Below, piece by piece: positions 16,285 to 26,173 of a stretch of 64,000 nucleotides of DNA (positions are counted from its first letter, which is position 1; the number at the start of each line of letters is the position of its first letter). The DNA is from Mariprofundus aestuarium (GTDB lineage: Bacteria > Pseudomonadota > Zetaproteobacteria > Mariprofundales > Mariprofundaceae), in contig NZ_CP018799.1 in NCBI RefSeq assembly GCF_002795805.1, forward strand, positions 1,543,001-1,607,000. The letters are read 5' to 3'. Below the pieces are notes generated by a model that searched no databases, had not been told where the DNA came from, and was given only the letters and a program-made list of their open reading frames with translations. Both the position numbers and the translations under genes were made by a program.

Positions 16285-16551
16285 CCCGTGACCCTATCCC
16301 GTTTTATTCGCAAGTTCACGTTTCGTTTTGCTCCTGCATCCGGGAGAAGGGCCAACTAATCGCGCCCTGAGAGTTCATTCTCAATCCATCCGGACCCCCT
16401 GAAAATGGATGGACGGTGGTGAGTTTTTTTTGTATGGTTTAGTGAAATCGAAACCAGAAACAACCGGGCCAATACCGCCCTGTTGATCAACCGCACAAGG
16501 TGCAGAGGATAGGGTTGTTTTTTGTTTCCCTCATCAAGCCGGGAGGGTGTC
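16285..16551. other. Divergent intergenic region with inverted repeat
   Basis: This spacer must hold promoters for the phosphatase (minus) and the EF-G-like gene (plus). A 7-bp inverted repeat (TCCATCC at 16385-16391, GGATGGA at 16407-16413) lies in it, followed by a T8 run near 16423. I could not fix a convincing promoter and see no coding sequence or RNA gene. Confidence 0.3.
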
Positions 16552-18558
16552 TTGAATAAGCTCAGCAGCTCACAAATCAGAAATATTGCATTGCTCGATC
16601 ATGAAGGCGCAGGTGAAACCACGCTGCTGGAGTCGATGCTGCACATTGCGGGCGCAACAAACCGCATGGGACATATCGATGCCCACAACACCATCAGCGA
16701 TTTTGATCCTGATGAGAAGGAGCATGAGAAGTCTCTCTACTGCTCCACTCTGTCGTTCAATTACCGGAACCTTCATTTCAACTGCCTTGATGTGCCGGGT
16801 TCACCGGATGCTATCGCTGAGGCGATGACCGCCCTGCATGCGGCAGAGTGTGCACTGATCTGCATCGATGCCACCGATGGCATCAAGGTCAATACACGCA
16901 AGGTATGGCGACTGGCCAGCCAGCGCGGCATCCCCCGCATCATCGCCATGACCAAACTCGACTCGGAGAATACGGACTTTTCTTTAGCGCTTGAAGCGAT
17001 CAAGGCTGAATTTGGCAATCGCTGTATTCCGCTCTACATCCCCAATGCCTCATCCTCCACATTTAGCGAGGTCTATTCGGCACTGCACAACAAAGATGCC
17101 AATGATGAAACAGCTGCTGCCTATGAGCAGATTGTAGAAGCCATTGTCGAAACCGACGATGACCTGATGGAGCGCTACCTTGAGGGCGCAGAGATCAGTG
17201 AAAAGGAGCTTGTAGCAGCCCTGAAAGAGGCACTGATCCACGGCAATCTCTTTCCTGTCATACCTACTGCCGGAGAGCATGAAGTGGGCACTAGGGAGCT
17301 TCTGGAGCTATTGAGTGAATTGGCACCGGCACCGGGTGAAATTGAGCGTATCGTCTATCAGAATGAGGAACCGGTTTCGATAGCAGATGTCAAAGGCTTC
17401 TCTGCCTACGTCTACCACACCGAGTCAGACGAGTTTGTCGGACGCATTTCCTATCTGCGCGTACTATCCGGTTCGATCGCAGCTCATGGCAGCTTCATTA
17501 ACCGCCGTTCCGGAAAAGAGGAGAAAGCCGGTCACATCTTCCGCGTAATCGGCAAGCAGCAGCAGGATATCAGCAAGGCTATTGCCGGAGATCTTGTGGC
17601 GATCCCGAGGGTTGCTGATATGCATGCCTGTGACGTCATCACTGATGCATCGACGGATATCGCCCTGGATGAACTGAGGTTCCCAACCCCGATGGTGTCA
17701 CTGGCCGTCCGTCCGAAAACCAACAAAGATGACCAGAAACTGGGAACGGTTCTGCATGAGTTCGAGAATGATGATCGCACATTCCATGTTCACAGCGACC
17801 CGCAGACCCACGACATGATCATCAGCGGCATGTCCGACCTGCATCTGCGCCTGATCCTCAATAAACTGAAACGCCGCTATAAGGTGAATGTAACAACCTC
17901 TACACCACGTGTAGCCTACATGGAGACCATCACCACCAACATCAACCATGTCGAATACACGCACAAGAAACAGTCCGGCGGTGCAGGCCAGTTCGGCCGG
18001 GTGGTGATCAACATGGAGCCGCTGGGACGGGGTGAAGGTTACGAGTTTGTCGATAAAATCCATGGCGGCGTCATTGATGGCGTATTCCGCGCCTCTGTCG
18101 ACAAGGGCGTTCAATCAGCAATGCAGGAGGGTGTGATGGCCGGATATCCGGTCACCGATGTTCGCGTCACCCTTATTGATGGCAAGACCCACACGGTCGA
18201 TTCCAAGGATATCGCTTTCCAGATCGCCGGGCAGAAGGCTTTCAAAAAAGCTTTTGAGCAGTGCAGGCCGGTACTACTGGAACCGATTGTGAGCATGGAG
18301 ATCACCGTGCCACAGAACCATATCGGCGATATCATGGGGGATCTCAATGCACGACGGGCCCAGATCCTCTCAACCGATATAAAAAGCAGCAAAGCGATCA
18401 TTGAAGCCCGGGCCCCCATGGCTGAAATTCAGTCCTATCAGGCGCAACTCAAGGCGATGACAGGCGGTGAAGGCAGCTACACGATCGAATTCGATCACTA
18501 CGATGTCGTTCCGCCGACGATCCAGAAACGGATTCTGGAAGAGTCAGCCAGCAACTGA
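16552..18558 (+). CDS. Elongation factor G-like protein with degenerate GTPase site
   Basis: 668 residues from the TTG at 16552, chosen because GGGAGG sits 5 bases upstream; an in-frame TTG at 16522 is less likely. All EF-G domains are present: G domain (1-260), beta barrel (about 280-380), domains III-V with KKQSGGAGQFGRVVI and GKTHTVDSKDIAFQIAGQKAF. The G domain is unusual: the P-loop reads DHEGAGETT, with Glu22 in place of the invariant Lys; the switch II DxPGH is DVPGS (Ser84 for the catalytic His); the NKxD motif is TKLD. EF-G paralogues (FusA2-like) are known, but this combination argues against ordinary GTP hydrolysis. It stands alone, with a terminator after it. Confidence 0.85.
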   Translation: MNKLSSSQIRNIALLDHEGAGETTLLESMLHIAGATNRMGHIDAHNTISDFDPDEKEHEKSLYCSTLSFNYRNLHFNCLDVPGSPDAIAEAMTALHAAECALICIDATDGIKVNTRKVWRLASQRGIPRIIAMTKLDSENTDFSLALEAIKAEFGNRCIPLYIPNASSSTFSEVYSALHNKDANDETAAAYEQIVEAIVETDDDLMERYLEGAEISEKELVAALKEALIHGNLFPVIPTAGEHEVGTRELLELLSELAPAPGEIERIVYQNEEPVSIADVKGFSAYVYHTESDEFVGRISYLRVLSGSIAAHGSFINRRSGKEEKAGHIFRVIGKQQQDISKAIAGDLVAIPRVADMHACDVITDASTDIALDELRFPTPMVSLAVRPKTNKDDQKLGTVLHEFENDDRTFHVHSDPQTHDMIISGMSDLHLRLILNKLKRRYKVNVTTSTPRVAYMETITTNINHVEYTHKKQSGGAGQFGRVVINMEPLGRGEGYEFVDKIHGGVIDGVFRASVDKGVQSAMQEGVMAGYPVTDVRVTLIDGKTHTVDSKDIAFQIAGQKAFKKAFEQCRPVLLEPIVSMEITVPQNHIGDIMGDLNARRAQILSTDIKSSKAIIEARAPMAEIQSYQAQLKAMTGGEGSYTIEFDHYDVVPPTIQKRILEESASN

Positions 18559-19439: not shown

Positions 19440-19476
19440 AAAAGAGCCGCATGACACTTAGTCCTGCGGCTCTTTT
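19440..19476 (-). terminator. Terminator hairpin next to attL, probably the original terminator of the tRNA gene
   Basis: A perfect 12-bp stem (AAAAGAGCCGCA at 19440-19451, TGCGGCTCTTTT at 19465-19476) with a 13-base loop. In the pre-integration arrangement (attB) it would sit directly behind the 3' end of the tRNA(CAU) gene, reading on the minus strand. The element now separates them by 6.6 kb. Confidence 0.75.
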
Positions 19477-19480
19477 TAGT

Positions 19481-19504
19481 TGGTGGCGCTTCAGGGACTC
19501 GAAC
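19481..19504. repeat. attL, 24-bp core repeat
   Basis: TGGTGGCGCTTCAGGGACTC plus GAAC, identical over all 24 bases to 26097-26120. Flanking bases differ on both sides, so the core ends here. It is an orphan 3' tRNA end with no tRNA body attached. Confidence 0.93.
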
Positions 19505-19766
19505 GCTAAGTGACTGTTTTTCAAGAGAAAACCCAGACCTACTCAGACCACTCCAGACCAATGACCCCAACGGTTTAGCCCTCCCCCCTACTTTCGACCA
19601 ACCAGTCCAGACCAACCCAGACCAGCCCTTAGAATGTCACAAATCGGTCACAACTTGCCCCCTCTGTGGAGCTGAGTTGCAGGAGGGTAGCGCACCCCCC
19701 GCCCCATGGACGGAGGGAGCGCATTCCGACTGTAACGAAGACGACGAGGCACACCGTGTCTGTTGA
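19503..19766 (+). other. Displaced 3' coding segment of the integrase gene
   Basis: Read in the integrase frame across the 24-bp core, this stretch is open for 87 codons and stops with TGA at 19764-19766. The encoded tail begins TLSDCFSREN and contains ECHKSVTTCPLCGAEL and later Cys and His residues, a zinc-ribbon-like pattern. In the integrated state it has no start of its own. In the circular form it would extend the integrase from 403 shared residues to 490 and overlap the rep start (19756) by 11 bases in another frame. The frame and overlap are read directly; that the circle forms is inference. Confidence 0.7.
19534..19623 (+). repeat. CAGACC iterons with 10-bp phasing
   Basis: Five copies of CAGACC start at 19534, 19544, 19554, 19608 and 19618; within each group they are exactly one helical turn apart. 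They lie between attL and rep. They may be Rep-binding iterons (origin), integrase arm sites, or both. Confidence 0.6.
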
Positions 19767-20616
19767 TACATTCGTTGCCTCGCATCTGAAGGTGAAGCAC
19801 AACTCTGCCGGAGAGGTCAGCATCACCCTGCCGACCAATCCCAATCTTCACCGCCCTCCTCCACCTGATAATTCTGGTTCAAGAATCACTACCTGTTTAT
19901 CTAGGCGTGGAGCAAAAAGTATCCGTGGTGCTGTTTATCTTGCAGGTAGAGATCACGGAGGCATGGGAACTTTTATTACGGTCACGTTCGATTTAGAGGC
20001 TAGAGAACGCTTGGCATCTGGAGAAACAACCATAGGAGCCGAAATAAGCCGCTTTCTTGATGCTTGGCGCAGTAGGTATCGGAAGAAAGGTAAAAAGCAG
20101 CCTCTGTTCATCTGGGTGGCTGAGAACCCCAACGATTCAAATCCTCATGTCCATATTTTGACCAATGATAAGGTTGAGTATCGGCATTTCAGGATGTGGG
20201 CACGTGGGCTGGAGAAGCTCTGGGGCAACGGCATGGTGCATCTGGAGAAGATCAAATATGCGAAAGCGGCTGGTCGTTATTTAATGAAGGCCGTCGGTTA
20301 CCTTGCAAAGGGAACCGATGGCAACCAAGGCTCCGTGGTAGGTCAACGCTATGGCGTTAGCCGTGATCTCAAACCTAAAGAACATATCGACTATGTTCAT
20401 GTCGGAATCGAAGGCGTCATTGCCTATCGCAAAATGATTACTGAATCATCCGGGAAAAAGTTTAATGACATCTACGTACATGAACATGGGGTTTGGACTC
20501 CCCCAGGTCATGGAGTTAACCAAACCCTGATCATGATTCTAAACTTATTACACATTCCTGAAACTCAGAAAATTAGGACAATGTTTCAATCAAACTCTCC
20601 TCAAAGCTTTATATAG
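19756..20616 (+). CDS. HUH-family replication initiator (rolling-circle Rep, ORF2/G2P-like)
   Basis: 286 residues from the GTG at 19756, preceded by a GAGG ribosome site; the frame is open back to a GTG at 19666, which reads through low-complexity sequence. The HUH motif is HVH at residues 131-133 (context SNPHVHILTN). The candidate nucleophile Tyr residues follow at 168, 175 and 182 in KIKYAKAAGRYLMKAVGYLA. This order (HUH, then YxxxxxxY) fits rolling-circle initiators of filamentous phages and small plasmids, which nick the origin and stay attached through Tyr. The last 27 bases overlap the convergent ariB-like gene. Confidence 0.8.
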   Translation: MSVDTFVASHLKVKHNSAGEVSITLPTNPNLHRPPPPDNSGSRITTCLSRRGAKSIRGAVYLAGRDHGGMGTFITVTFDLEARERLASGETTIGAEISRFLDAWRSRYRKKGKKQPLFIWVAENPNDSNPHVHILTNDKVEYRHFRMWARGLEKLWGNGMVHLEKIKYAKAAGRYLMKAVGYLAKGTDGNQGSVVGQRYGVSRDLKPKEHIDYVHVGIEGVIAYRKMITESSGKKFNDIYVHEHGVWTPPGHGVNQTLIMILNLLHIPETQKIRTMFQSNSPQSFI

Positions 20617-21450
20617 AAAAGGATCTATTTTCATATCACAGTCATTTGCTATGCGGGCTTTTAGCTGTTCAAAAGATGAATGATAAGCAAATTCTCTGGT
20701 CAGCAGCAAATGAATGAAAGGTAAGATATAATCTTTTCCTGAAAGTACGCACACTAAGTCCAAGTCATACTTTCTTAAGTGCTTAACAACAATTTTTTTC
20801 TCTTTTTGATACTGCTCATCGCCAAGAATTAACTTCAATTGAGTAATTATCACTCTCATTCTTCCTAATATTAGGGGTTTTAAAACATTGGGGCTCCCAC
20901 CGTCCAAAAAACGATGTATATTATAAGAAACTGTTTTCACTCCAATTTTCTTTTTATGATTCCTGTGGCAAATTGCATACAACACAAAAAGTGGAAGAAA
21001 TGATTTCTCCAGACTTTTTATCTGAGCGTCAAAATTTAGCCTTGAGCAAACATCGACTTTAGTGCTGTTATAGTCACTCTCATGAGCTATGGTTTCCAAT
21101 GTTTTTCTACATAACAATAAGTTTTCTGAGCAATAAACTCTCAAAGAGTAAAAATATTTTAGTTTTAAAGGCCTTGTCCCACATATTAAATTCAAATCCC
21201 CATCAACTATATAAATCTTTTTTCTGGTCGAGTTACTCTGGTCTGCTTTACAGGCATCAATAACTTCTTTCCTTCCGCCAAGCTGAAATATGCGAACTAC
21301 TTTTGCTTTACCTTCCAAGATTCTCGAAAACAATTTTTCATACACCGCTCGGTTTGCTTTATCTTCAACAAATATATCTATTTCATTAAATGGTCTATAC
21401 AAAAAAGAATATGCTTTTTTTGCAATGCTGGAGTATTCTAATATACCCAT
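20590..21450 (-). CDS. DUF4435/TOPRIM nuclease-like protein, AriB-like (PARIS effector)
   Basis: 286 residues. The N-terminal part has a TOPRIM-like pattern: Glu29 in IDIFVEDKANRAVYEKLF, then IYIVDGDLN with Asp83 and Asp85. YCSEN (106-110) matches the YxxEN motif typical of DUF4435. In PARIS, AriB is held by the AriA ATPase and released on sensing a phage anti-restriction protein, then acts as a nuclease (tRNA cleavage is reported for PARIS). The ATG follows the ariA-like stop by one base (TGA-C-ATG), so the two are tightly coupled. A family match is by motif only. Confidence 0.75.
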   Translation of the reverse strand: MGILEYSSIAKKAYSFLYRPFNEIDIFVEDKANRAVYEKLFSRILEGKAKVVRIFQLGGRKEVIDACKADQSNSTRKKIYIVDGDLNLICGTRPLKLKYFYSLRVYCSENLLLCRKTLETIAHESDYNSTKVDVCSRLNFDAQIKSLEKSFLPLFVLYAICHRNHKKKIGVKTVSYNIHRFLDGGSPNVLKPLILGRMRVIITQLKLILGDEQYQKEKKIVVKHLRKYDLDLVCVLSGKDYILPFIHLLLTREFAYHSSFEQLKARIANDCDMKIDPFLYKALRRV

Positions 21451-21451
21451 G

Positions 21452-22816
21452 TCAACCCTTACTCAGATCAATACAAGCTTCTTCTCTGTCTAAAATAATG
21501 GATGGGGAGTGTGTAGCAAAAATCAGCTGCAAGTCAGGGTTTGCTTCTTGAATTGCTCCAACAAACATTTCTTGCCACATAATATGCAATGACAATTCTG
21601 GCTCATCTACAATTAATGAGACCGTCTCATCGCGGCTTCGATTGAAGTAAAGGTTGGACAACATAACAAAAAGGTGCGCCTCCCCAGATGATAATCCAGT
21701 TAAAGATCTCACATTGCCGTTCACCTCGAGTTGAATTTGACCTGCCTCTGAAAAACAAATTTTCTTTCCACCATGTTCTAGGAATGCGTTGATTCCATAT
21801 AGATATTTATCAACCTTAGAATATGCTTCGTTTTTCTTTTTATTAAATTTTTCAACTAGTTTAATTAATGTGTTGATATTGGCTTCTTGAGGAAGAAATG
21901 ATGTCCAGCTAAAGAACTCCATCATTTGATCGGGTTTCAATTTTTCAAAAATGTCATCAAATGCTTTAATGTCATACTTGTTAAACTGTTCATACATAAC
22001 TTCAATGTAGCGAAAAAATGGAGAAACATGACTATCAATATCCTTTTCTTCCACTCCAATGTTTATAAGGGTCTGCTTAACTAGCACATGCTTCTTTTTC
22101 ATTTGAGCTACATATCTTGCATCAGGGATTTTTGGCTTAATTTTTTCATCTTGTGCTTTGTCATCCTTGATGTGGAATGAACACAGAACCATGTCTCTCA
22201 TCAACCTATTAGCCAGAGTCTTTTGTTCTGAAGAAATCGTTCGATAATAGTCCTCGACCATTTCCCTAGTTTCAATCATCCCTTCTTTCAAGCTTCCAGC
22301 AAAGACCTCTCGAAAATGTCTATTTCTAATCCTTGGTCGGATATTTTTATCGGACAAATCACCACTTACTTTTCTTTCAAGGCCAATAAACATTGGCGAT
22401 GGTAAAGATTTAATGCTCTTAATTACTGGATGTGAAAAGGCGATTGTCTCTGCCTCTTTGTAAAATTCTACTCGCCTTTCTTCATACCTATATGAAGATT
22501 CATAAGGATCTCTTTTAATTAATGATAATTTATAAGAATCTTTCACATTACTATGCAAGATGGTCAATTCATCTTCTGAGGATTTCGCTGTGATAGAATG
22601 TGTCTTTCCATCAATATTATATTCAACTTTCATCTCAGAGAAATCTACATCAACCAAATACAGTAAAGATGGTTGAAGCAATGCAACCATCCCCCTTACA
22701 ACTGAAGTTTTTCCGCTTCCATTGATCCCAGTCAGAAATGACAATTCTTCATTAAACTTCACTGAAATATCTAAGTAACCATGAATTTTTTTGCCTGTAA
22801 ATTTAGTAATCTTCAT
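21452..22816 (-). CDS. AAA15-family ABC-type ATPase, AriA-like (PARIS sensor)
   Basis: 454 residues, SMC/OLD-like ATPase. Walker A GINGSGKTS (30-38), signature LSSGE (375-379), Walker B SLIVDEPELSLH with Asp404/Glu405, and the switch His436 in ATHSPSII. The insertion between them is long and largely helical with charged stretches. It lacks a C-terminal TOPRIM, so it is not a single-chain OLD nuclease; the nuclease part is the next gene. GGGG lies 7 bases before the ATG. The pairing AAA15 plus DUF4435 is the defining arrangement of PARIS. Gabija-type or other OLD-like systems are the alternative. Confidence 0.8.
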   Translation of the reverse strand: MKITKFTGKKIHGYLDISVKFNEELSFLTGINGSGKTSVVRGMVALLQPSLLYLVDVDFSEMKVEYNIDGKTHSITAKSSEDELTILHSNVKDSYKLSLIKRDPYESSYRYEERRVEFYKEAETIAFSHPVIKSIKSLPSPMFIGLERKVSGDLSDKNIRPRIRNRHFREVFAGSLKEGMIETREMVEDYYRTISSEQKTLANRLMRDMVLCSFHIKDDKAQDEKIKPKIPDARYVAQMKKKHVLVKQTLINIGVEEKDIDSHVSPFFRYIEVMYEQFNKYDIKAFDDIFEKLKPDQMMEFFSWTSFLPQEANINTLIKLVEKFNKKKNEAYSKVDKYLYGINAFLEHGGKKICFSEAGQIQLEVNGNVRSLTGLSSGEAHLFVMLSNLYFNRSRDETVSLIVDEPELSLHIMWQEMFVGAIQEANPDLQLIFATHSPSIILDREEACIDLSKG

Positions 22817-22887
22817 TAATCATCCCCATAAACAGCTAACGTGAATTTCCATAGGCTTGTCTAATATACCAAAAAGTCGAACCATTA

Positions 22888-23115
22888 TTATTTTTCAACT
22901 CCATCCCTTCTTCCAGCTTCATACATTTGCCTCATCTCAATTTCTTTAACCTTTTCATCGCTTCGCATAATTTCAAAAACAGACCAAATCAAGCCAAACA
23001 CCATCAGATAAAATAAGATATCAATCTTAGCTGCCATACTCAGGTTGAACATCTTGCCATCGTATAACCAGATTAGAGATGTGAATGTTGCTGCTGATAT
23101 AATTCCCCAAATCAT
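22888..23115 (-). CDS. Small two-helix membrane protein in the defence operon
   Basis: 75 residues, unrecognised. Two hydrophobic segments (about residues 2-18 and 32-50) are followed by a charged C-terminal tail (EIMRSDEKVKEIEMRQMYEAG). GGAG lies 8 bases before the ATG. It lies 72 bases upstream of the ariA-like gene and 60 bases downstream of the HNH gene on the same strand. A membrane-linked role in the defence module is possible but not shown. Confidence 0.6.
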   Translation of the reverse strand: MIWGIISAATFTSLIWLYDGKMFNLSMAAKIDILFYLMVFGLIWSVFEIMRSDEKVKEIEMRQMYEAGRRDGVEK

Positions 23116-23175
23116 TTCTTTTTCTCCTAAAACAATATATTGATGGCCTTGCTCGGCTTAACAGGCCTAAACTCA

Positions 23176-23724
23176 TTATCTGTTAACAAATGCCTCATCC
23201 AATTGCTTATACATATTCAGTGACTTTTCAGATTCTAATTTAATATTTTCATAAAGACTGTTCGCAATCACACGAATTGCATGCCTCTCTTTTTCGTCTA
23301 AGTCCGGATATTTTTCAGCTGTAATATGATTAATTATTTTGTTCTTTCTTTGCTCGAATAGGTAAGATTCATTTCTTCTCTCACATACAACCTGAAGGTG
23401 TTCTTCCCAAGATGTGTATGTTTTACCTTCCTTTCTTTCTCGCTTGTTACAAGGCTTACAGCATGGAGCAATATTCCCAGGGTGGTGAAGTCCATATTCG
23501 GTTCTGTTGAACATCAATAAATGTTCAATTTGCAGCACTGCGTGCGCTTCTCCGCAGTAACAACACGTTCCGCTGAAAACATCATCTCTAATCCGGGCCC
23601 AAGTCGCTTTCCCTTTGCCTGAACCGGTATTGAATGAATGGCCTAGATAATACTCTCCAACTTTAGTTAAGAAACTTCGGACAGCTGTATTAGCAGCATC
23701 AGATGAAGTGTTATATGTTGTCAT
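23176..23724 (-). CDS. HNH endonuclease
   Basis: 182 residues. The HNH motif is framed by two zinc-binding Cys pairs: CCYCGEAH (Cys 54-57), then IEHLL with catalytic His68, Asn84 in HHPGNIAP, and CCKPCNKRE (Cys 88-92). The C-terminal half is helical and charged. Such stand-alone HNH proteins occur in restriction and defence loci and in phages. Its ATG overlaps the stop of the upstream secreted-protein gene (ATGA), so they are translationally coupled. Confidence 0.8.
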   Translation of the reverse strand: MTTYNTSSDAANTAVRSFLTKVGEYYLGHSFNTGSGKGKATWARIRDDVFSGTCCYCGEAHAVLQIEHLLMFNRTEYGLHHPGNIAPCCKPCNKRERKEGKTYTSWEEHLQVVCERRNESYLFEQRKNKIINHITAEKYPDLDEKERHAIRVIANSLYENIKLESEKSLNMYKQLDEAFVNR

Positions 23725-24215
23725 TGCTTGTTATATTGACCGTAGCCACTGCTGTTCACAGTACCCAAACTTTTTGAAGGCTTCGCTGATTTTGGTTTTG
23801 CTTTTGAGTAATTAATCGCAGTAACAACCCCTCGTGCAACCATTACAACAGGAACTTCTGAGTAATTGTAATATACGAGCCGCTCTGACCTTTCCTGGGC
23901 CGTCATCGAGACAAGCGTTTTACTTGGAACACCCCAAGACTTAATGACATCTTTTTTGCTCATGCCGATTTTTATCTTTTTCAATCGGATCAATTGGTTT
24001 GCTTGAGTAGCGGTAAGCTCACCATGACCTTTTTTTGAAGCATTCTCTCTTGAGTAATCTCGCATCCTCTTGCGGCTAAGTTCCTTTCCGCTTTCACATG
24101 GAGAATCCTGCCAGCTAATAGAACCACTGGGACTTTCGCATTTATATGTTATGCCCGCATAAGAAACTGGAATAGCCATGAATACAGCAACGGCCACAAT
24201 CAATAATTGTTTCAA
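23721..24215 (-). CDS. Secreted DUF4124-domain protein with SmpA/BamE-like segment
   Basis: 164 residues from the TTG at 24215, which has AGAGGG 7 bases upstream and lies just after the predicted transcription start; an in-frame TTG at 24233 would precede it. A signal peptide (KQLLIVAVAVFMAIPVSYAG) is followed by a DUF4124 motif (ITYKCESPSGSISWQDSPC) and a region (about 80-125) with IKIGMSKKDVIKSWGVPS, resembling BamE/SmpA-type folds. Exported DUF4124 proteins are common in proteobacteria with unknown function. Finding one as first gene of a defence operon is odd. Confidence 0.7.
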   Translation of the reverse strand: MKQLLIVAVAVFMAIPVSYAGITYKCESPSGSISWQDSPCESGKELSRKRMRDYSRENASKKGHGELTATQANQLIRLKKIKIGMSKKDVIKSWGVPSKTLVSMTAQERSERLVYYNYSEVPVVMVARGVVTAINYSKAKPKSAKPSKSLGTVNSSGYGQYNKQ

Positions 24216-24238
24216 GATAAATCCCTCTCTCAATGAAG

Positions 24239-24267
24239 GTTATAGATCATCACAACATATTTCACAA
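24239..24267 (-). promoter_or_regulatory. Promoter of the defence operon
   Basis: On the minus strand TTGTGA (24262-24267), a 17-base spacer and TATAAC (24239-24244). Transcription would begin near 24232, 17 bases before the TTG start of the first gene. It would drive the run DUF4124 - HNH - small membrane protein - AriA-like - AriB-like. Confidence 0.5.
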
Positions 24268-24346
24268 CCTAGATATATATAGGGGCTTGCAAATTACCCC
24301 CCTCATAGACAACCTTTCGTTCAGATTCTCAATTGCGAGGCTCCTC

Positions 24347-24670
24347 ATGGATAACGATAAATTCATTTCTATCATCGACAATGCCACAGAAAAGTTTCGT
24401 GGCGACATCACTCATTTAAGCCGTGCAATAGGCATGCTTGCCGTTGGGCGCCGCTTAGGATGGCGAGTGACCTATCTCATTTATAGTCGAGCAACTGTTC
24501 GTAAGTACGAGAAACTTCTTTATGTAAGCATTCAAGATGTATTGCCTGAGAAAGGAGATTTGGCTGAAAAATCTCTTGCAGGAAAAGCTCTTAAGAAAGT
24601 CGACAACTTTTGGAAGGCCGTAAAGGGAGAAATCCCAGGTATTCGATCAACTATGACCACCCAGGACTAG
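24347..24670 (+). CDS. Hypothetical protein (107 aa) of the integrative element
   Basis: Unrecognised. The ATG at 24347 has GAGG 6 bases upstream; the frame is open back to an ATG at 24233, which lacks a ribosome site and overlaps the divergent promoter. The protein is helical and basic (HLSRAIGMLAVGRRLGWRVTY) with no membrane segment or clear HTH. It lies between the divergent defence operon and xis-int, a usual place for a regulator, but that is only position-based. Confidence 0.55.
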   Translation: MDNDKFISIIDNATEKFRGDITHLSRAIGMLAVGRRLGWRVTYLIYSRATVRKYEKLLYVSIQDVLPEKGDLAEKSLAGKALKKVDNFWKAVKGEIPGIRSTMTTQD

Positions 24671-24676
24671 TGTCTA

Positions 24677-24705
24677 TTGACACGCCCCTAGGGGAACTGT
24701 AACTT
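24677..24705 (+). promoter_or_regulatory. xis-int promoter with palindromic operator in the spacer
   Basis: A perfect TTGACA (24677-24682), a 17-base spacer and TAACTT (24700-24705). The spacer contains the 10-bp palindrome CCCCTAGGGG (24685-24694), a good candidate operator for a repressor that would keep the element integrated. Confidence 0.55.
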
Positions 24706-24731
24706 GCACCTATTCCACGCTGGAGGTGCAA
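24704..24731 (+). promoter_or_regulatory. Inverted repeat masking the xis ribosome site
   Basis: TTGCACCT (24704-24711) and AGGTGCAA (24724-24731) form a perfect 8-bp stem that includes the GGAGGT ribosome site of xis. The left arm lies at the promoter's -10/start region, so it would be present only in RNA read through from upstream, not in RNA from the xis promoter. Confidence 0.45.
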
Positions 24732-24733
24732 AG

Positions 24734-24907
24734 ATGAAATGGATTACAATAAAAAAACTTAGTGACCTAACCGGGTACTCTGAGGATGCAATCCGAGCCA
24801 AAATTAGAAAAGGTGTTTGGTTAATGGGACTTCATTGGATCAAGGCTCCAGACGGTCGGGTTTTGTTTAATCCTCAAGCCATTAATTCTTGGGTCGAAGG
24901 CCATTAA
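24734..24907 (+). CDS. Excisionase, Xis/AlpA-like
   Basis: 57 residues from the ATG at 24734 (GGAGGT six bases upstream); an in-frame ATG at 24704 is less likely. The sequence MKWITIKKLSDLTGYSEDAI is a typical winged-helix excisionase start, followed by RAKIRKGVW and a short W-containing C-terminus (INSWVEGH). Such proteins bend DNA at att sites to direct the integrase to excision. Its stop is two bases before the integrase ATG. Confidence 0.8.
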   Translation: MKWITIKKLSDLTGYSEDAIRAKIRKGVWLMGLHWIKAPDGRVLFNPQAINSWVEGH

Positions 24908-24909
24908 TC

Positions 24910-26154
24910 ATGGGGGCCAAGTTAAGAGGGAAAAGCATACAGGTTGATTTTTCATATCAAGGCCAGCGATGCCGTGAAACCTTGAAACTTGAACCAACAA
25001 AAGCACACCTTCTATTCGCAGAGCGAAAGCATGCAACAATTCTACATGAAATTGCCATAGGAACATTCGATTACAGAAAGCACTTCCCAAATAGTAAACG
25101 CGCACTTCAATTTTCTGGCAGTCAATCCGGCACTCAATTAGTTAAAGATGCCCTCCTCTCTTACCTGGCCGATAAAAAGATAAGAATAGCAAACTCCACT
25201 TACGGCTCTTATGAAACTGCTGTTAGATGCCACTTAATACCAGCATTTGGGCAGATGAGAGTAGAAGATTTGTCTACACAGGTAATCCGCCATTGGCTTG
25301 GTGGACTTACCACTATTAAAAACAAACGAATAAATAATGTCTTAATTCCCCTGCGCGCCATTCTAGATGATGCTTTCGCAGATGGTTCTATAGACCGGAA
25401 TCCGATGGATAGAATAAAAAACCTAAAAGTCAGAACACGTGAGCCAGAGCCTTTCGATGATGTTGAGCAGTTAGCAATTGTTAGTGCAGCTTCAGATCAA
25501 GGCATTGCTAACGCAATCCAGTTTGGTTTCTGGACAGGGCTACGAATCGGCGAATTGATTGCTTTGCGGTGGAGCGATATTGATTGGAGATCAGATACAG
25601 TTCACATAAGACACAACAATGTTCGTGGCCTAGAAAAAGGAACTAAGACAGAGGCGGGCAATCGAAGCATTGACCTACTTCTACCAGCATTAAAGGCACT
25701 TCAATGCCAAAAGAAAATCACTTTCAATCAAAACGATTATGTATTTCACAACCCTAATACCAACCGCAATTGGAATGATGATATCAAGTTCAGGAAAATT
25801 GCCTGGGAACCAACAGTAAAGCGAGCAAAGATACATTATAGAGAACCAAAGCAGATGAGACACACATATGCTTCTATGATGCTAACAGCAGGTGAAAATA
25901 TCGCATGGGTATCTCAACAGCTAGGTCACACCTCGATTCAAACCACATTGAAAAGGTATGCTCGATGGATTCCAAAAATGAATAACGGGTCAGGAACTAA
26001 GGCAGTAGCGATGTTTTCTAAATCTACTCAGAACGACACAATTTTGGCACAAAAAAAAACGGAAGCCCGTAAGCTCCCGTCTTTATTACACTTATATGGT
26101 GGCGCTTCAGGGACTCGAACCCCGGACACATGGATTATGATTCCACCGCTCTAA
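24910..26154 (+). CDS. Tyrosine recombinase (phage-type integrase), truncated by integration
   Basis: 414 residues as it stands. An N-terminal arm-binding domain (about 1-60), a SAM-like core-binding domain (about 75-165) and the catalytic domain with Arg212 (TGLRIGE), Arg317-His318 (KQMRHTYAS), His340 (LGHTS) and the Tyr350 nucleophile (KRYARW). The first His of the usual HxxR is replaced, as in related phage integrases with RHTFAS. The last 18 residues (from GGASGTRTPD) are only the antisense of the tRNA gene, and the stop lies inside the tRNA. In the circular form the same frame continues into 19503-19766, giving 490 residues. Confidence 0.92.
   Translation: MGAKLRGKSIQVDFSYQGQRCRETLKLEPTKAHLLFAERKHATILHEIAIGTFDYRKHFPNSKRALQFSGSQSGTQLVKDALLSYLADKKIRIANSTYGSYETAVRCHLIPAFGQMRVEDLSTQVIRHWLGGLTTIKNKRINNVLIPLRAILDDAFADGSIDRNPMDRIKNLKVRTREPEPFDDVEQLAIVSAASDQGIANAIQFGFWTGLRIGELIALRWSDIDWRSDTVHIRHNNVRGLEKGTKTEAGNRSIDLLLPALKALQCQKKITFNQNDYVFHNPNTNRNWNDDIKFRKIAWEPTVKRAKIHYREPKQMRHTYASMMLTAGENIAWVSQQLGHTSIQTTLKRYARWIPKMNNGSGTKAVAMFSKSTQNDTILAQKKTEARKLPSLLHLYGGASGTRTPDTWIMIPPL
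26051..26080 (-). terminator. Element-borne terminator behind the tRNA gene
   Basis: Reading on the minus strand from the tRNA, an 8-bp stem (ACGGGAGC / GCTTCCGT, one G-T pair) with a 6-base loop is followed by a run of nine T. It lies 16 bases after the tRNA CCA, inside the integrase coding sequence on the other strand. It can replace the native terminator displaced to 19440-19476. Confidence 0.75.
26097..26120. repeat. attR, 24-bp core repeat within the tRNA 3' end
   Basis: Identical over 24 bases to 19481-19504. It covers the CCA, the acceptor 3' strand and the T-arm up to the T-loop of the tRNA, a classic target for tyrosine integrases. Confidence 0.93.
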
Positions 26155-26173
26155 CCAACTGAGCTAAAGCGCC
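26097..26173 (-). tRNA. tRNA with CAU anticodon (elongator Met likely; Ile2 possible)
   Basis: 77 bases including encoded CCA. A 7-bp acceptor stem (GGCGCTT / AAGCGCC), D-arm GCTC..GAGC, anticodon stem GTGGA/TCCAT with loop ATCATAA (anticodon CAT), and T-arm with TTCGAGT all pair. The sequence start (GGCGCTTTAGCTCAGTTGG) and A73 fit elongator Met. CAU is also used by the lysidine-modified Ile2 tRNA, which sequence alone does not exclude. It is the integration site of the element. Confidence 0.96.

Follow-up and report, generated by a model that had tools for sequence, protein, structure and literature searches.

A glutamate-bearing P-loop in an EFG II-type elongation factor G paralogue of Mariprofundus aestuarium

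Genomic context of the EF-G paralogue

The window analysed here is a stretch of 64,000 nucleotides (G000:C1:1543001-1607000) of the 2.54 Mb single-contig genome of Mariprofundus aestuarium. It contains an intact open reading frame for an EF-G-like protein of 668 residues (Table 1). The gene starts with TTG at 16552; in place of this codon L010 and L025, two of its orthologues, use ATG. Pfam recognises all five EF-G domains above the cut-offs (G, 111 bits; II, 40; III, 89; IV, 147; V, 95), and the Pfam matches in the protein are confined to EF-G domains. The P-loop reads GAGETT. The P-loop glycines, Thr23, Ser61, Asp80, Gly83 and the aspartate of TKLD are retained, as are the QSGGxGQ motif of domain IV and the equivalent of Escherichia coli His583, whose replacement by lysine (H583K) stalls translocation (PMC4490557). 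An AlphaFold2 model built from 37 sequences has a mean pLDDT of 90.6 and is silent on bound nucleotide. It superimposes on E. coli EF-G on the translocating ribosome (7n2v) with a TM-score of 0.93, and on ribosome-bound Bacteroides EF-G2 (8dmf) with 0.85.

Table 1. Features of the EF-G paralogue gene and of the nearby integrated element (window coordinates)
Feature	Position	Strand	Evidence
EFG II-type EF-G paralogue, 668 aa	16552-18558	+	ORF, NCBIfam and Pfam profiles, motif reading
Ribosome-binding site GGAGG, 5 nt upstream of the start codon	16542-16546	+	conserved in three congeners
Altered P-loop HEGAGETTLLES, residues 17-28; Lys to Glu22 at 16615-16617	16600-16635	+	alignment, codon comparison
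Switch I / G2 (RGITI position), HEKSL; Ser61 EFG II-like, Glu59 clade-specific	16723-16737	+	alignment
Switch II DVPGS, without the catalytic His (usual for EFG II); Ser84 at 16801-16803	16789-16803	+	alignment
G4 TKLD, as in Thermus and M. smegmatis EF-G2; Thr134 at 16951-16953	16951-16962	+	alignment
Domain IV loop I YTHKKQSGGAGQ, clade-invariant	17956-17991	+	alignment of orthologues
Domain IV loop II DGKTHTVDSK; His547 aligns with E. coli His583	18178-18207	+	alignment
G2P/REP_ORF2-type rolling-circle Rep, in element	19666-20616		
HNH-like nuclease, in element	23176-23724		
Tyrosine integrase, in element	24889-26154		
tRNA-Met gene, element at its end	26097-26173	-	

A separate normal fusA gene lies at G000:C1:318914-320959 of the same genome and is followed after about 70 bp by an EF-Tu match. 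Its product has the motifs GKTT, DTPGH, NKMD and RGITI and is 33% identical to the window protein. Weaker matches to other translational GTPases are found elsewhere in the genome.

In M. aestuarium and three near congeners the EF-G gene is divergent to a gene for a SpoIIE-type phosphatase; the near relatives include Mariprofundus micogutta. We claim no partner for the EF-G paralogue, because the phosphatase gene is separated from it in one further genome (G020) and was not found near it in four others (G012, G027, G416 and G398), some of these stretches being short. A functional link thus has no support from the neighbourhood. The intergenic region between the two genes (16285-16551) contains short blocks kept in four species, for example TGTATG.TTT. 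A promoter scan upstream of the EF-G gene gave nothing above shuffled sequences.

About 900 bp downstream of the gene starts a 6.6-kb integrated element (19476-26120) bounded by a near-perfect direct repeat of 29 nt (19476-19504 and 26092-26120, 93%). It is integrated at tRNA-Met, and the EF-G gene lies outside it, so the gene is not mobile-element cargo. In the element, a gene for an AriB-like DUF4435 protein (20590-21450) adjoins one for an AriA-like AAA_15 ATPase (21452-22816), both on the minus strand; the two are a candidate anti-phage pair of the PARIS type. We also found no viral copy of the EF-G gene: the sole IMG/VR match to the P-loop pattern is a chance match of 30 residues, not an EF-G.

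Assignment to the EFG II subfamily

By its sequence the window protein is a member of the EFG II (EF-G2) subfamily. This assignment follows from the match to NCBIfam model NF009381 (PRK12740-type EF-G; 774.6 bits, cut-off 583), from the nearest solved G domains, and from two marks of the subfamily, serine for threonine in G2 and leucine at the last P-loop position (PMC3150367), found here as Ser61 and Leu25. When only the G domain is compared with solved structures, 1wdt, 9k0z and 7uvp come first (144-151 bits), and the next EF-G scores 121 bits. The protein stays below the cut-offs of the Bacteroides-type EF-G2 model NF058620 (515.9 bits, cut-off 1000) and of the M. smegmatis-type model NF009377 (540 bits, cut-off 890). 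A tetracycline ribosomal protection protein was rejected, the score on NF012153 (292 bits) being far under the cut-off of 775. Chain A of 7uvp is itself deposited as 'Tetracycline resistance protein TetQ', yet it is Bacteroides EF-G2, because NF058620 matches its G domain at 492 bits and the same-sequence entry 8dmf is titled as ribosome-bound EF-G2 of B. thetaiotaomicron.

In two further P-loop features the window protein departs from the description of the subfamily. Glycine at position 16 is 86% conserved in EFG II (PMC3150367) and not universal; the window protein has Asp16, and two orthologues (L009 and L010) have glycine. The G1 sequence GKT is described as conserved in EFG II (PMC3150367), whereas all ten orthologues covering the site read GET. 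On the tree the GET proteins appear as a derived lineage inside EFG II.

The P-loop change is the exceptional one

The earlier note on this locus had described an EF-G paralogue that kept a ribosome-binding architecture and lost three residues of the nucleotide site: the P-loop lysine, the switch II histidine and the G4 asparagine. The architecture and the altered motifs (GETT, DVPGS and TKLD) hold, and the genome has the separate normal fusA gene that the note had wanted confirmed. The description therefore stands in part; its treatment of the three losses as equivalent does not, since two of them recur as features of the subfamily.

We compared the protein with 26 other EFG II proteins, 14 from Pseudomonadota (L053-L066) and 12 from Planctomycetota (L109-L120). 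The switch II position is occupied by tyrosine in 20 of the 26 and by histidine in only one; the rest have leucine, glycine, glutamine or alanine. The first residue of G4 is asparagine in all 14 Pseudomonadota proteins and threonine in 7 of the 12 from Planctomycetota. Among the characterised EF-G2 proteins, the motifs are GSGKTT/DAPGY/TKLD in Thermus, GGGKTT/DTPGY/TKLD in M. smegmatis and GSGKTT/DCPGS/NQLD in Bacteroides. Both GTP binding and GTP hydrolysis are reported for Thermus EF-G-2 (PMC3150367); in E. coli EF-G, the H91A mutation leaves GTP binding normal and slows hydrolysis only 7-fold (PMC4532990). Ser84 and Thr134 are therefore ordinary EFG II features and no evidence of a dead GTPase. 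More generally, changes of the switch II histidine or the G4 asparagine alone should not be read in EFG II as the sign of one. The P-loop lysine, on the other hand, is present in 26 of 26 other EFG II proteins and in fusA. Of the three changes, only Lys22 to Glu is exceptional.

Origin, distribution and selection

The gene belongs to some of the iron-oxidising Zetaproteobacteria: 10 of the 78 genomes surveyed in this class carry it, eight of them in Mariprofundus (8 of 23 genomes of the genus); this survey, like those of the phylum and the order, is a sample, and several of the genomes are incomplete. Because most congeners are without the gene, it must be dispensable. Glu22 occurs in every one of the ten distinct orthologues covering the site, down to 65% identity, and the homologues with standard motifs that the earlier note had named as a refutation were not seen among the orthologues. 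A DNA pattern for the GETT P-loop matched 9 of 398 Pseudomonadota genomes, each match lying inside the EF-G paralogue gene; the reversed control pattern matched none.

A tree of the quick type without bootstrap, computed after removal of the motif columns, places nine Glu22 orthologues together in one group (SH-aLRT 99). The sister group consists of two proteins (L012 and L071) from a Nitrospirae-labelled MAG and another genome of the same phylum, 52-56% identical and with the motifs GKT[TS], DVPG[TS] and NRLD. Since the Glu22 orthologues form a single clade and the nearest outgroups keep lysine, the replacement arose once, on the stem of the clade. The switch II histidine is already absent in the sister group.

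In an alignment of the nine orthologues, 42% of the residues do not vary. No unbroken invariant stretch is longer than 12 residues, and two reach that length: the altered P-loop and domain IV loop I. Variation in the P-loop codons among orthologues is synonymous only and includes GAA/GAG for Glu22. Where dS could be computed, dN/dS is 0.06-0.085, about 0.07 overall, compared with 0.04-0.08 for fusA, all rough values because several dS exceed 1. The dN of the paralogue exceeds that of fusA by a factor of 1.1 to 5. Some residues are shared by the whole clade and missing from the EFG II outgroups; they include Glu22 and, where the RGITI motif has its glycine, Glu59. To judge from these patterns, the change of Lys22 to glutamate is maintained by selection in the clade.

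Possible function

The P-loop lysine is normally placed between the beta and gamma phosphates of the nucleotide (PMC6310460). Because lysine at this position contacts both, Glu22 is expected to weaken or abolish GTP binding. We propose that the window protein is an EFG II translocase with weak or no GTP binding and hydrolysis that works beside fusA, an explanation to which we give about an even chance. It would bind the ribosome at the EF-G site. Glu22 and the switch I residue Glu59 would repel the beta and gamma phosphates, leaving GTP binding and hydrolysis weak or absent, and tRNA-mRNA translocation would be promoted mainly by binding energy and the intact domain IV. Such a factor would be slower than the fusA EF-G, would spend little or no GTP, and could be of use when energy is scarce. 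The binding energy of EF-G is indeed held to drive translocation, while hydrolysis and Pi release serve dissociation (PMC12775393). The same requirement of hydrolysis and Pi release for leaving the ribosome (PMC12775393) counts against our explanation, and so does the dispensability of the gene in most congeners.

A bolder version is possible, though we hold it only tentatively: an EF-G fold that makes no use of guanine nucleotide, in which Glu22 fills or repels the phosphate site, translocation proceeds by binding energy alone and release takes another route. A clade-specific lysine, Lys112, is a candidate salt-bridge partner of Glu22.

The earlier note had thought of hibernation or stress control. 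The protein would then occupy the EF-G site without GTP hydrolysis, stay on, and block or protect ribosomes under stress. The loss of the P-loop lysine from an otherwise intact ribosome-binding architecture would suit such a brake, and EF-G stays on the ribosome for longer when it cannot hydrolyse GTP (PMC12775393). However, the domain IV tip, required for tRNA movement and not for binding alone, belongs to the best-conserved parts of the protein, a stress-gene context is not conserved across the neighbourhoods compared, and tight binding is not expected without nucleotide either. We regard this role as unlikely. Given the intact domain IV tip and the precedent of Bacteroides EF-G2, the low-hydrolysis translocase is, by analogy, the likelier of the two.

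Somewhat less weight goes to the idea that the protein is still an active GTPase, with the nucleotide held by the P-loop backbone, by Thr23 and Ser61 through Mg, and by TKLD, so that Glu22 only tunes affinity or rate. The retained nucleotide-site residues listed above fit this idea; in Thermus EF-G-2, TKLD goes together with GTP binding (PMC3150367), and the invariance of the whole loop could mean that something is still bound there. Nevertheless, the charge is reversed at a residue touching the beta and gamma phosphates (PMC6310460), one that is lysine throughout the other EFG II proteins and fusA, and switch I carries the additional Glu59.

It is improbable that the protein is a recycling specialist which, as mitochondrial EF-G2 or the spdEFG2 of Borrelia do, splits ribosomes together with RRF. 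EF-G paralogues that divide translocation and recycling among themselves are known (PMC3150367), but domains IV-V score only 70 bits against the recycling-type mitochondrial EF-G2, compared with 205 bits against Thermus EF-G; the translocation histidine is retained, and the protein groups with EFG II, not with spdEFG. Finally, chance, sequencing error or recent decay can be dismissed: the G domain changes at a somewhat higher rate than the other domains (dN/dS about 0.10 versus 0.04-0.08) and many congeners lack the gene, but all covering orthologues share the change in full-length open frames, with low overall dN/dS and only synonymous P-loop variation.

Whether EF-G needs GTP hydrolysis for moving or only for leaving the ribosome is a long-running question, and a naturally selected EF-G with a glutamate P-loop is a ready test object for the role of GTP. 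If translocation by this protein proved nucleotide-free, GTP binding itself would be dispensable; if the protein proved to block ribosomes, it would be a new kind of ribosome brake.

Comparison with known EF-G paralogues

The window protein shares with canonical EF-G (fusA) the five-domain architecture, the QSGGxGQ motif of domain IV and the His583 equivalent. In contrast to the GKTT, DTPGH, NKMD and RGITI of fusA, it has GETT, DVPGS, TKLD and HEKSL.

EF-G-2 of Thermus thermophilus (1wdt, 2dy1) is also an EFG II protein, provides the nearest solved G domain, and has a switch II without histidine (DAPGY) and TKLD. It differs from the window protein in having the P-loop lysine, and GTP binding and hydrolysis are reported for it (PMC3150367). 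Mycobacterium smegmatis EF-G2 (9k0z, 9k10) is likewise an EFG II protein with TKLD and no switch II histidine (DTPGY in its case). It is reported to bind guanine nucleotides and to lack ribosome-dependent GTPase activity (PMC3150367). It differs in keeping the P-loop lysine and in belonging to NF009377.

Another EF-G paralogue, in family f8 of the Pseudomonadota (L036, L040 and L080), has also lost the P-loop lysine and has tyrosine at the switch II position. Its P-loops read GATT, GATT and GSTT in three genomes (G045, G048 and G051), and 25 relatives of the same order keep lysine. The loss in this family is independent of that in the window protein and led to alanine or serine; the family keeps RG[IL]TI and NKM[DE] and is 35-36% identical to the window protein. 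Five relatives of this paralogue from the order of G048 (L126-L128, L134 and L141) have NEMD rather than NKMD in G4, with the P-loop lysine kept. As EF-G paralogues have lost this lysine on two occasions or more, pseudo-GTPase translocases of the bolder kind described above may recur as a class.

The closest likeness to the proposed function is offered by EF-G2 of Bacteroides thetaiotaomicron (fusA2/BT2167; 7uvp, 8dmf), also a paralogue beside a normal fusA, with serine in switch II (DCPGS) and a similar ribosome-bound fold. Later papers credit Bacteroides EF-G2 with translocation that needs no GTP hydrolysis (PMC12775393) and with enabling GTP-independent translation (PMC10294740), and it is described as induced upon carbon limitation (PMC6989115). 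Bacteroides EF-G2 retains the P-loop lysine (GSGKTT), has NQLD in G4 and belongs to a family of its own (NF058620), so the two proteins do not represent the same solution.
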